Assembly: GCF_000311845.1 (NCBI RefSeq) | Contig: NZ_HE978574.1 | Coordinates: 132,252 to 185,736 of the forward strand | Reading direction: 5' to 3' | Origin: Enorma massiliensis phI | GTDB taxonomy: Bacteria > Actinomycetota > Coriobacteriia > Coriobacteriales > Coriobacteriaceae | DNA: 53,485 nucleotides | Shown here: positions 37,843 through 45,359 of the stretch, piece by piece | Layout: every line of letters starts with the position of its first letter | Numbering within the stretch: the stretch's first letter is position 1 | The notes under the pieces: generated by a model | Told to the model about the DNA's origin: nothing | What the model saw: the letters and a program-made list of their open reading frames with translations, nothing else | Databases searched by the model: none | Program-made: the position numbers and the translations under genes

Positions 37843-38031
37843 TTTCTGGCAGTTATTTCAACTATGAACGATTGCAGGGGCGATGCGGCGAGCATCGTCC
37901 GCAGCTGGATGGCGGAACCGTCAAATAAGAGACAAAAACCAGGCATTTTGCTAGGTGAGTTGGCGTCAAAAAGCCATGGCGGGCGTCGCGGCGGCTGCCA
38001 AATCGTTCATAGTTGAAATAACTGCCAGAAA
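37843..38031. repeat. 189-bp element with perfect 31-bp terminal inverted repeats
   Basis: Positions 37843-37873 are the exact reverse complement of 38001-38031. The ends start TTTCTGGCAGTTATTTCAAC, and the 127 bp between them carries no ORF and no obvious symmetry. The form is that of a miniature inverted-repeat element, although no target-site duplication is visible. It begins 21 bases after the nuclease-like gene. Confidence 0.85.
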
Positions 38032-38060
38032 TAATTGGATTTATTGAAAAAAGTTGCTCT

Positions 38061-38105
38061 GAACACAAAATAGGGGGCCGCGGCATATGCCGCGGCCCCC
38101 TATTT
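38061..38105 (-). terminator. Intrinsic terminator of the glmU-prs operon
   Basis: A 38-bp perfect palindrome (arms AAATAGGGGGCCGCGGCA and complement) is followed on the minus strand by TGTGTTC after its own ATTT. It lies 25 bases past the prs stop. Confidence 0.85.
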
Positions 38106-38130: not shown

Positions 38131-39114
38131 TTACATCGCGAAGTCGCCGCCGACGAGCTTGGAGACGCTCTCCTCGTCGTACACGGCCGCGATCGCGTTG
38201 GCGAACTCGTCTGCCACCGTAATGGTCTTGATCTTGCCGGCAGCCTCGACGGGGATGGAGTCCGTGACCACGCACTCGACGATCGGCGCATCGTTCAGGC
38301 GCTCGATAGCGGGGCCGGAGAAGATGCCATGGGTAGCGCACACATAGATGTCGCCGGCGCCCATCTTCTTGAGCTCGCGCACGCTTGCGCACAGCGTGCC
38401 CGCGGTGTCGATCATGTCGTCGTTGATGATGCAGGTCTTGCCCTCGATATCGCCGATGATGCCCATGACCTCAGCGGCGTTGTGGCGCGGACGGCCCTTG
38501 TGCGCGATGGCGAGCGAGCAATCGAGCATGTCGGAGAGCTTCTTCGCAGCCTTGGCGCGTCCCACGTCCGGAGACACGACAACAAGGTTGTCGGTATCGA
38601 AGTGCATGTTGTTGTAGTACTCGCCAAAGAGCGGCAGCGCGGAGAGGTGGTTCACGGGGATGTCGAAGAAGCCCTGGATCTGCCCCTGGTGCAGGTCGAG
38701 CGTGATGACACGGTCAACGCCTGCACGCTCGAGCAGGTTGGCAACGAGGCGCGCAGTGATGGGCTCGCGCGGCGCGGCCTTGCGATCCTGGCGCGCGTAG
38801 CCGTAGTGGGTGATGCACGCGGTGATAGTGCGGGCCGAGGCGCGCTTCGCGGCGTCGGTGGCAATGAGCAGCTCCATGAGCGCGTCGTTGACGTCGCCCG
38901 AGATGGACTGGATGAAGAACACGTCGGCGCCGCGCACCGTCTCATCGAAGCGCGCGTAGATCTCGCCGTTGGCGAACTTCTCGAGTGCCAGGCCCGAGAG
39001 CTCGACCCCCAATAGGTCCGCGACCTTTTCTGCTAGCGGCCTGTTCGCTGTGCCCGAGTACAGGCGCAGCGTTTTCTGCATGGCACACGTCTTCGATGGG
39101 TCGTTGATGGGCAT
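38131..39114 (-). CDS. prs: Ribose-phosphate pyrophosphokinase (PRPP synthase)
   Basis: This enzyme makes PRPP from ribose-5-phosphate and ATP, the shared precursor for purines, pyrimidines, histidine, tryptophan and NAD. The 327 residues fit a class I Prs. ATP-site RQDRKA, the binding motif DLHQGQIQGFFDIPVNHL and the PRPP loop INDDMIDTAGTL are all present. AAGGAGAAGGGGA lies directly before the chosen ATG; an in-frame start 15 codons upstream is not needed. It follows glmU by 54 bases, the gene pair seen in many Gram-positive bacteria, and ends in a strong terminator. It supplies substrate to PurF encoded elsewhere in the window. Confidence 0.96.
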   Translation of the reverse strand: MPINDPSKTCAMQKTLRLYSGTANRPLAEKVADLLGVELSGLALEKFANGEIYARFDETVRGADVFFIQSISGDVNDALMELLIATDAAKRASARTITACITHYGYARQDRKAAPREPITARLVANLLERAGVDRVITLDLHQGQIQGFFDIPVNHLSALPLFGEYYNNMHFDTDNLVVVSPDVGRAKAAKKLSDMLDCSLAIAHKGRPRHNAAEVMGIIGDIEGKTCIINDDMIDTAGTLCASVRELKKMGAGDIYVCATHGIFSGPAIERLNDAPIVECVVTDSIPVEAAGKIKTITVADEFANAIAAVYDEESVSKLVGGDFAM

Positions 39115-39168
39115 GTTCCCCTTCTCCTTCTGCTCGACTGATGTAACGTTCGAGGCCAATAGATACCG

Positions 39169-43153: not shown

Positions 43154-43182
43154 TTGACTCCACTCAACTAAAGCGACACAAT
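43154..43182 (+). promoter_or_regulatory. Promoter of the cstA leader
   Basis: TTGACT (43154-43159) and CACAAT (43177-43182) are separated by 17 bases. A perfect TTGACA at 43115-43120 has no matching -10 at normal spacing. Confidence 0.6.
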
Positions 43183-43250
43183 CTAGTTCGCCGAAAGGGC
43201 AGCGAGGGCGGCACGGGGCCGCGCTCGATAGAACGAAAGGTTGCTCTGCG

Positions 43251-43292
43251 ATGCATGCTTACCTACTAATTTCGGGTGAGATTATTAGCTAG
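43251..43292 (+). CDS. Putative 13-residue leader peptide upstream of cstA
   Basis: ATG to TAG encodes MHAYLLISGEIIS. GAAAGG lies about 10 bases upstream. The codons include CTA CTA ATT and ATT ATT, which are rare in this GC-rich genome. The ORF starts about 60 bases after the promoter start and ends exactly at the foot of a strong stem-loop, ahead of an intrinsic terminator. The arrangement resembles ribosome-controlled attenuation. No direct proof of translation exists. Confidence 0.45.
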   Translation: MHAYLLISGEIIS

Positions 43293-43331
43293 CGCGGGTT
43301 TGGTATATCGCCAGCCCGCGCTCATCGCGGG
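43291..43331 (+). promoter_or_regulatory. Two mutually exclusive stem-loops in the cstA leader
   Basis: AGCGCGGG (43291-43298) pairs with CCCGCGCT (43315-43322), reinforced by TGG/CCA. The same CCCGCG can instead pair with CGCGGG (43326-43331). The first stem would be covered by a ribosome stopped at the end of the leader ORF. Confidence 0.5.
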
Positions 43332-43341
43332 CGGCTGTAAG

Positions 43342-43377
43342 GCGAGGGCCGTCGTATATCGAGGCCCTCGCTTTTTT
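43342..43377 (+). terminator. Intrinsic terminator inside the cstA leader
   Basis: GCGAGGGCC pairs with GGCCCTCGC over a 12-nt loop and is followed by TTTTTT. It lies between the only good promoter and the cstA start 98 bases downstream. It either ends a small RNA of about 190 nt or controls read-through into cstA. Confidence 0.85.
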
Positions 43378-43475
43378 GTATCTGCCCGTGCTCGCGCGAT
43401 GCGCCCAGGCCGGTGAGCCGGCAGGCGCGAATGTAGATCGCATCATCTTCGGGGCTCCGAGGGAAGGAACGTGTC

Positions 43476-45314
43476 ATGAACGGAATGGTCGTCGTTGTGG
43501 TGGCCGCGGTGGTGCTTGCCGCCGGCTACCTCGTATATGGTCGATGGCTGGCAAAGACCTGGGGGATCGACCGCGAGGCTCTTACCCCTGCCAAACGCAT
43601 GGAGGACGGCAAGAATTTCTCGCCCGCCTCGTGCTTCACGGCGTTTTCGCACCAGTTCAGCTCCATCTGCGGTGCGGGCCCGGTCACGGGTACTATCGCG
43701 GCGATGATGTTCGGCTGGTTGCCGGTGCTTCTGTGGGTGCTCGTGGGCGGCATCTTCTTCGGCGCCGTGCACGACTTCGGTGCGCTCTATGCCAGCGTGA
43801 AGAACAACGGCAAGTCGCTCGCCCAGCTCATCGACAAGTACATCGGTCGCACGGGACGCCGTCTGTTCCTGCTCTTTAGCTGGCTGTTCACCATCATCGT
43901 GATCGCGGCCTTCGTGGACATGGTTGCCGGCACCTTCCAGGCCACCTTCGCCGCCGATGGCGCCGTGGACGCGGCCGCCTCCTATGCCGGTGGCACGGCG
44001 GGCACCATCTCGATCCTCTTCACATTCGTTGCTATCGCATTCGGCTGGATCAACCGCAAGTTCGGCCTTAGCGGTTGGAAAGAGCTCCTGCTTGCTGTGG
44101 TGCTCTTCGTTCTCATGTTCGCCGTGGGCATGCAGTTCCCGGTATATCTGAGCAAGTTTGGCTGGTTCGCAGTCATCGCGGTGTACCTGCTGTTCGCTGC
44201 GGCTATGCCCATCCAGACCCTCAAGCAGCCGCGTGACTATCTCACGAGCATCATGATGATCGTCATGATCGTGTGCGCGGTGCTCGGCATCTTCGTGCTC
44301 GGCGCCAACGGCGAGGCCACGATGACCGCCCCGATGGTCGCCGACATCTCAGCGCTCGCCGCAAACGGCAGCTATCTGTTCCCGCTGCTGTTCGTGTCGG
44401 TCGCATGCGGCGCGCTCTCCGGCTTCCATAGCCTCGTTTCCACCAACACCTCGTCCAAGCAGGTCGAGAAGGAGCAGGATACCGTCGTCGTGGGCTACGG
44501 CGCCATGATCGTCGAATCCTTCGTGGGCGTGCTCGCCATCGTGGTGGCCGCCATCATGTACTCCCAGATCAACAACACCGGCGCCGCCGGCGCGCTTCAG
44601 GGCACGCCGTTCCAGATCTTCTCGCAGGGTGTGGCGCGCGGCATGATGGCCTTCGGCGTGAACGGGACGCTGGCCACCGTGTTCATGACCATGTGCGTCT
44701 CCGCACTCGCGCTGACCTCGGTTGACGCTGTAGCGCGCATCGGCCGCCTCTCGTTCCAGGAGTTCTTCGCAAAGGGCGACGACGCCGCCGAGGATGTGGC
44801 AGCCGAGAACACCGGCCTTGCCAAGGTCTTCTCGAACACCTGGGTTGCCACCGTGCTCACGCTGGCGCTCGGCTTCGCGCTCGCATTTGGCGGTTACAAC
44901 AACATCTGGCCGCTCTTCGGCGCGTCCAACCAGCTGCTTGGCGGCATGACCATGATCACGCTCGCGGTGTTCTGCAAGTGCACCGGCCGCAAGGGCTTCA
45001 TGCTCTACGTTCCCGTGGCGTTCTTGCTCGCCTGCACGTTCACCTCGCTTGTGCAGAGCATCATCAGCTGCGCGAACGCGCTCGCTGCCGGCGGCATGGC
45101 GGTCATCGCGACTTCCGGCCTGCAGCTCGTGTTCGCAATCCTCATCGTGATTCTGGGCATCTTCGTGGCATACAACTGCTTGAAGGAGCTCTTCACCAAG
45201 GAGGCCGGCTCCATCCCCGACGAGGAGCCCGAGTGGTCGCAGATGGGTAAGGCTCGTTACAGCCATGGTGAGCGCCCCGAGGCTCCGGCCGACGGCGCCA
45301 AGGCTCAGGCCTAA
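43476..45314 (+). CDS. cstA: CstA-family carbon starvation protein (pyruvate/peptide transporter)
   Basis: This is a 612-residue membrane protein with about 16 hydrophobic segments, close in length to the Bacillus-type member. The family motif ASCFTAFSHQFSSICGAGPVTG lies near residues 49-70, and HDFGALYASVKNNGKS near 96-111. E. coli CstA and its paralogue BtsT import pyruvate and have been linked to peptide uptake during carbon starvation. The N-terminus is a direct membrane helix (MNGMVVVVVAAVVLAAGYL). AAGGAA lies about 7 bases before the ATG. Its long leader carries a small ORF and a terminator, suggesting regulated read-through. Two hairpins follow the stop. Confidence 0.93.
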   Translation: MNGMVVVVVAAVVLAAGYLVYGRWLAKTWGIDREALTPAKRMEDGKNFSPASCFTAFSHQFSSICGAGPVTGTIAAMMFGWLPVLLWVLVGGIFFGAVHDFGALYASVKNNGKSLAQLIDKYIGRTGRRLFLLFSWLFTIIVIAAFVDMVAGTFQATFAADGAVDAAASYAGGTAGTISILFTFVAIAFGWINRKFGLSGWKELLLAVVLFVLMFAVGMQFPVYLSKFGWFAVIAVYLLFAAAMPIQTLKQPRDYLTSIMMIVMIVCAVLGIFVLGANGEATMTAPMVADISALAANGSYLFPLLFVSVACGALSGFHSLVSTNTSSKQVEKEQDTVVVGYGAMIVESFVGVLAIVVAAIMYSQINNTGAAGALQGTPFQIFSQGVARGMMAFGVNGTLATVFMTMCVSALALTSVDAVARIGRLSFQEFFAKGDDAAEDVAAENTGLAKVFSNTWVATVLTLALGFALAFGGYNNIWPLFGASNQLLGGMTMITLAVFCKCTGRKGFMLYVPVAFLLACTFTSLVQSIISCANALAAGGMAVIATSGLQLVFAILIVILGIFVAYNCLKELFTKEAGSIPDEEPEWSQMGKARYSHGERPEAPADGAKAQA

Positions 45315-45324
45315 TACCCTCCCA

Positions 45325-45359
45325 AAATGATAAAACGAACCCGGTTCGTTTTATCATTT
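45325..45359 (+). terminator. Hairpin after cstA
   Basis: A 17-bp perfect stem around one base (AAATGATAAAACGAACC and complement) is AT-rich at the base and ends in ATTTCTT. It lies 11 bases after the cstA stop. Confidence 0.65.

Follow-up and report, generated by a model that had tools for sequence, protein, structure and literature searches.

The 53,485-nucleotide stretch of the Enorma massiliensis phI genome analysed here (the window) carries on its forward strand a gene for a CstA-family transporter, the nearest relatives of which, among the matches listed, belong to uncultured Coriobacteriaceae and Collinsella (86–93% identity for the top six). Between the promoter and cstA lie a short leader open reading frame (ORF) and five segments, A to E, which can form alternative RNA hairpins, including an intrinsic terminator (Table 1). 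A sequence-only reading of this DNA had described a promoter, a 13-codon ORF with CTA and ATT codons, two mutually exclusive stems beginning at the stop codon of this ORF and an intrinsic terminator, all preceding cstA. Each of these elements was recovered, within 0–1 base of where that reading had placed it.

Table 1. Features of the cstA leader and its downstream gene, in window coordinates.
Feature	Position	Strand	Basis
σ70-type promoter, TTGACT-17-CACAAT	43154..43182	+	promoter scan
Leader ORF MHAYLLISGEIIS, 13 codons	43251..43292	+	ATG 43251, stop TAG 43290-43292
Putative regulatory codons CTA CTA ATT	43263-43271	+	in leader ORF
Putative regulatory codons ATT ATT	43281-43286	+	in leader ORF
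Segment A, overlaps ORF stop codon; partner B	43291..43303	+	alignment, swap control, folding
Segment B; partner A or C	43308..43321	+	swap control, folding
Segment C; partners B, ORF/5′ region, or D (antiterminator)	43327..43340	+	swap control, folding
Segment D, terminator 5′ arm; alternative partner C	43341..43358	+	swap control, alignment, folding
Segment E and U-run, intrinsic terminator 3′ arm	43359..43377	+	alignment, folding
cstA, CstA-family transporter, 612 aa; proposed controlled gene	43476..45314	+	Pfam PF02554, E 5e-138

The promoter scan found one σ70-like site where 0.1 were expected in shuffles, and the ribosome-binding site of the leader ORF, AAAGG, is located about 10 nt 5′ of its start. 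The 192-nt leader RNA has a folding energy 5.5 standard deviations below that of dinucleotide shuffles. Stems A:B (−20.2 kcal/mol, z −4.1) and B:C (−19.7 kcal/mol, z −3.2) compete for segment B, and the terminator D:E (43341–43377; −24.3 kcal/mol, z −5.9), which is followed by TTTTTT and ends 98 nt before the start of cstA, competes with the putative antiterminator C:D (−12.6 kcal/mol, z −1.4). A simple terminator scan reported none, and D:E was seen by folding instead. Two further elements lie at this locus. The hexamer CTAAAG occupies 43168–43173 in the promoter spacer and recurs in 21 of the 31 leaders compared below; in C. aerofaciens it belongs to a near palindrome and could be an operator. 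An inverted repeat, GATAAAACGAAcccggTTCGTTTTATC, immediately 3′ of cstA (45328–45358) is probably a two-way terminator.

To the window locus we added 75 loci from a search for CstA homologues. A model search places a leader before 54 of these 76 cstA loci; an ORF finder had detected 52, and two more were added. From the 54, 31 non-redundant leaders, all from one bacterial family (Coriobacteriaceae), were kept for the main tests. The 22 cstA loci without a leader belong mainly to Olsenella, Thermophilibacter and Atopobiaceae. By eye, the leaderless cstA genes of Olsenella and Thermophilibacter (L052, L054, L058–L061, L095, L099, L107) share another conserved-looking upstream block, possibly a different regulator. 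Within the family the leader is present in 62 of 65 genomes, and the three that lack it (G033, G043, G061) also lack CstA at E ≤ 1e-20. A second, weak match to the leader model within the window (38009–38105, 25.9 bits) falls on an inverted repeat, rich in GC, close to where the minus-strand ORF 38131–39159 ends; it has no mini-ORF and is probably an ordinary terminator.

A TTGAC-type promoter is found 71–111 nt 5′ of the ORF in 29 of the 31 leaders, the exceptions being L104, which has none, and L081, which has only a different site. The gap between the terminator and cstA, 31–129 nt long, contains a σ70-like site in none of the 31. The order is thus that of an attenuator: a promoter, an ORF with a ribosome-binding site, a terminator and the gene, with no second promoter in between. 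The sequence-only reading had held that a promoter of cstA's own after 43377, together with a mini-ORF lacking conservation, would speak against it; neither was found, the ORF being conserved as described below.

In the 31 leader ORFs, leucine, isoleucine and valine account for 187 of 387 sense codons (48%), compared to 24.7% in seven long ORFs of the window. Codon choice is equally distinctive: CTA makes up 35 of 50 leucine codons, versus 6 of 357 (1.7%) in the seven long ORFs, and ATT makes up 84 of 126 isoleucine codons, versus 23 of 188. Judged by these long ORFs both codons are unusual, as had been proposed, and the bias is kept in the relatives. The ORF also bears the marks of a translated sequence. 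Its insertions and deletions in the alignment are multiples of three, its stop codon varies (TAG in 16 leaders, TGA in 12, TAA in 3), and of the 179 single-base codon differences between members of 67 close pairs, 81 are synonymous, where 44.5 are expected. The changes in these pairs are spread evenly over the three codon positions (134, 128 and 134), which we read as RNA pairing constraining the ORF as well. The peptide itself varies, with LLDILVLVIS in L104, LVIRLIIS in L081 and LLVTLISITSVIS before genes of the major facilitator superfamily (MFS), and the spacing of L, I-I and I-I ahead of the stop is fairly conserved across the 31 leaders. Judged by its sequence, the ORF has the properties expected of an attenuator leader, namely coding signatures and an enrichment in codons for the amino acids that would be sensed.

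Conservation of the hairpins was examined in the same alignment. In A:B and D:E combined, 16 of 23 base pairs show two-sided (compensatory) changes and 89.7% of cells are paired, a value reached in 0 of 500 shuffles (83.2% paired); when the two hairpins are slid, pairing drops to 36–49%. We also compared the pairing of each segment with its own partner to pairing with the partners from the other 30 leaders. The own partner was better for A:B, B:C and D:E (p 0.0002 for all), as well as for pairings of the ORF RNA with C (p 0.0004) and with A (p 0.005), the location of which differs between species. Such a preference was absent for P:B, P:D, P:E, A:C, A:D and B:D and borderline for C:E (p 0.07).

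The pairing C:D behaves differently. Its own-pair and swapped-pair energies are equal (p 0.47), both of its sides are nearly invariant and, although it pairs in 93.5% of the cells of the 31-leader alignment, it displays no two-sided changes, so that covariation failed as a proof of the antiterminator. The high proportion of paired cells may in part be a consequence of the constraints imposed by B:C and D:E. As C:D is also far weaker than D:E, its antitermination could only be kinetic.

The classical trp-type four-segment scheme was rejected because segment A, which adjoins the stop codon, has the wrong parity. In the cstA leader a ribosome on A must favour termination and, consequently, an earlier segment is needed, a part that the ORF RNA could play; support for ORF:A and ORF:C was then found in the swap control.

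To describe the states of this chain, the RNA downstream of a ribosome was folded for the 31 leaders, with the first free base set 12 nt beyond the point where the A-site codon begins and with transcription halted before E is made. In the average over CUA stalls, one leader that has no CUA was represented by its fifth listed codon. The mean expected number of C:D pairs was 1.61 without a ribosome, rose to 7.07 when the A site held CUA and was 2.07 with the ribosome at the stop codon. In the same three states, A:B had 5.67, 9.36 and 0.05 pairs and B:C had 4.69, 1.32 and 9.77 pairs. In the window leader, C:D rose from 0.2 pairs without a ribosome to 8.8 at the CUA stall, and fell to 0.5 at the stop. 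C:D peaks when the A site holds one of the codons −9 to −4 relative to the stop, which is where the conserved CTA and the first isoleucine codons are located. A ribosome at the two late ATT codons already covers part of segment A and gives 3.9–5.9 C:D pairs, so the strong conservation of these codons is not fully explained. Three leaders (L040, L041, L090) are exceptions that keep B:C at the CUA stall. Replacing the ORF with that of another species raised ribosome-free C:D from 1.61 to 2.72 pairs (p 0.0036), and removing it raised C:D to 7.71, which shows that in these simulations the ORF RNA helps to hold the switch off.

The simulation was repeated on 24 other leaders, five of them from the same family and one of these five nearly identical to L104; here every pair between D and RNA upstream of it was counted. 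The 16 analysable leaders gave 8.84 pairs for a stalled ribosome, 4.54 for one at the stop and 3.01 in its absence; 12 of them followed the expected direction and two the opposite one. An earlier version of the repeat, made before D was redefined, had given a weak result (14/24). In these models the choice between the stems depends on where the ribosome stands, and the leader would act as a three-state switch, in which C:D is mostly absent without a ribosome or with one at the stop codon and forms upon a stall at CTA or ATT.

Computation thus gives the parts, their conservation, pairings that exclude one another and a C:D stem that depends on where the ribosome is. On this basis we propose ribosome-mediated transcription attenuation, with the leader turning cstA on when charged leucyl- (and isoleucyl-) tRNA is scarce, a reading we consider very probable. 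RNA polymerase would start from the σ70-type promoter, with a ribosome trailing through the 13-codon ORF. When leucine and isoleucine are plentiful, the ribosome would reach the stop codon and cover A, leaving B:C and D:E to form, and transcription would stop at 43377. When the ORF is untranslated, its RNA would pair with A or C, and the terminator would form again. A ribosome held at CTA CTA ATT, codons on which it presumably stalls, would leave A free to pair with B and C free to pair with D before E exists. If C:D then lasts long enough to block termination, as the scheme supposes, the polymerase would read through into cstA. The switch would in this way tune CstA to the supply of branched-chain amino acids (BCAA). 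Ribosome-dependent control by leucine or isoleucine supply, an explanation put forward by the sequence-only reading, is thus supported by the conservation of the ORF, its leucine, isoleucine and rare-codon content, the covarying hairpins and the simulated stalls.

The same hairpins could relay a stall of another origin, in which a nascent peptide of the form LxIISxII senses a small molecule, such as a 2-oxo acid, or an antibiotic and thereupon arrests the ribosome. Such an arrest would suit the way in which L, I-I and I-I are spaced, which is fairly conserved, and stalling at codons −9 to −4 would yield C:D whatever its cause. The peptides nevertheless vary as those of a sensor of BCAA composition would (L104, L081 and the MFS-associated variant above), and selection acts on codons and not on residues alone, as the share of CTA among the leucine codons illustrates; we regard arrest by the peptide as unlikely. 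Less likely still is that the unit from 43183 to 43377 is an independent small RNA that acts in trans, the cstA transcript arising merely through incidental readthrough. The unit is strongly structured and has a promoter and a terminator of its own, but it is tied to cstA at 54 of 76 loci, the three leaderless family genomes have no CstA, the gap to cstA contains no promoter-like site, and the ORF has coding signatures that a small RNA does not need. The small RNA, which the sequence-only reading had raised, is hence disfavoured as the explanation of the locus and possible as a by-product. A riboswitch, T-box or protein-binding leader in which the ORF is incidental would agree with the strong conserved structure but is just as improbable, for the window has no gathering-score match to any of 4227 Rfam families and none that is credible at E up to 5, the T-box model (RF00230) does not match the leader, and outside the ORF the alignment shows no unpaired core that is both long and conserved. 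The genome does have two weak T-box matches elsewhere, both below the Rfam threshold: a T-box-like RNA before pheS (L185 302–587) and a second match (L108), for which no target was found.

The attenuator reading has close precedents. In the his attenuator, a leader ORF is followed by a chain of alternative stems, in which stalling of the ribosome shifts the pairing to that of the antiterminator state. The cstA leader resembles the enterobacterial his attenuator both in its stem chain, which a stall would flip, and in the predicted involvement of the ORF RNA in the default state. It differs in that it would sense leucine and isoleucine and not histidine, its target is a transporter and not a biosynthetic operon, and C:D is much weaker than the terminator. 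The use of rare CUA as regulatory codons has a parallel in the leu attenuator (leuL) of E. coli and Salmonella. According to the respective reports, changing three CUA codons of the S. typhimurium leu leader to CUG lowered its sensitivity (PMC1183508), and ribosomes pause at the leuL CUA codons, termination being relieved when the CUA tRNA is impaired (PMC8384417). The cstA leader, which has one or two CUA codons followed by isoleucine codons and precedes a different gene, is likened to leuL by codon use, with no sequence relation seen. The mechanism proposed for it is a classical one, which it would share with the his and leu attenuators.

Leaders with a BCAA-rich ORF and a terminator are described for ilvB of Actinobacteria (PMC1262725; PMC10272879), the phylum to which the cstA leader belongs. 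The gene concerned is cstA and not ilvB, and the ilvB-II motif is set apart by its location and by the absence of an Rfam match; the ilvDBC operon of the window's genome gave no match to the cstA-leader model. For ilvB of S. coelicolor, PMC1262725 reports that codon changes were without effect. E. coli cstA, which belongs to the same transporter family and is induced in starvation, is controlled by transcription factors (cAMP-CRP and Fis) and by CsrA, and PMC7730263, which describes CstA proteins as pyruvate and peptide transporters, does not use the word "leader". The titles, abstracts and passages searched contained nothing on cstA attenuation or on such leaders in Collinsella, and the main text of two ncRNA surveys mentions neither Collinsella nor cstA nor Olsenella. 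The leader family thus appears to be new, being absent from Rfam and from the literature searched, while its mechanism is a known one.

Beyond cstA, 297 genomes of the order were searched with the leader model, and 101 contain a match at E ≤ 0.05, 62 within the family and 39 outside it. We inspected 33 loci holding 34 matches, a set that takes in only a minority of the matches with E above 0.003. At 15 of the 33 loci the leader is followed by cstA and at nine by an MFS metabolite/H+ symporter, where the leader ORFs are L/I/V-rich too, often with threonine. An HpaH-like hydratase and/or a PanE-like reductase follows at three further loci and behind the first of the two L145 leaders, and at the remaining six loci either the contig ends or the match is weak and no convincing ORF accompanies it. 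In Lactococcus, PanE-like enzymes are known to act on branched-chain 2-oxo acids, reducing them, a point that the literature search did not corroborate. The first leader of genome G165 is followed by an HpaH-like gene (L145 510–1100) that matches over 148 residues only, as if broken.

In the small genome G025, both copies of cstA (L182, L183) lie directly after ilvE, with the leader in between, which is the clearest genomic tie of CstA to BCAA transamination. This adjacency occurs in that one genome only (two loci among 185) and was rejected as a general rule. Of the 65 family genomes, 31 have ilvC and 63 have ilvE; in the 57 genomes of good quality, ilvC is found in 26, ilvE in all 57 and the leader in 54. 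The leader is kept in 28 of the 31 good-quality genomes without ilvC, which argues against CstA serving only to supply pyruvate for BCAA synthesis. Comparison of CstA to solved structures gave no match, and its substrate is therefore not to be judged by structure.

We tentatively suggest, as a possibility rather than the expected outcome, that the leader belongs to a BCAA-starvation attenuator regulon of Coriobacteriales for the uptake and handling of 2-oxo acids or peptides, comprising CstA, the MFS metabolite/H+ symporter and the PanE-like and HpaH-like enzymes. In these bacteria CstA might import branched-chain precursors, either peptides or branched-chain 2-oxo acids, and not pyruvate as a carbon source; the retention of the leader without ilvC and the presence of ilvE in every good-quality genome would fit this role. 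To our knowledge, few RNA regulators have been studied in Coriobacteriales, and the leaders described here apparently constitute an uncatalogued attenuator family with several target genes in this order. Peptides and pyruvate have both been named as the substrate of this "carbon starvation" transporter. In gut bacteria the leaders would link it to the supply of branched-chain amino acids and would provide a sharp genetic handle on what CstA imports.
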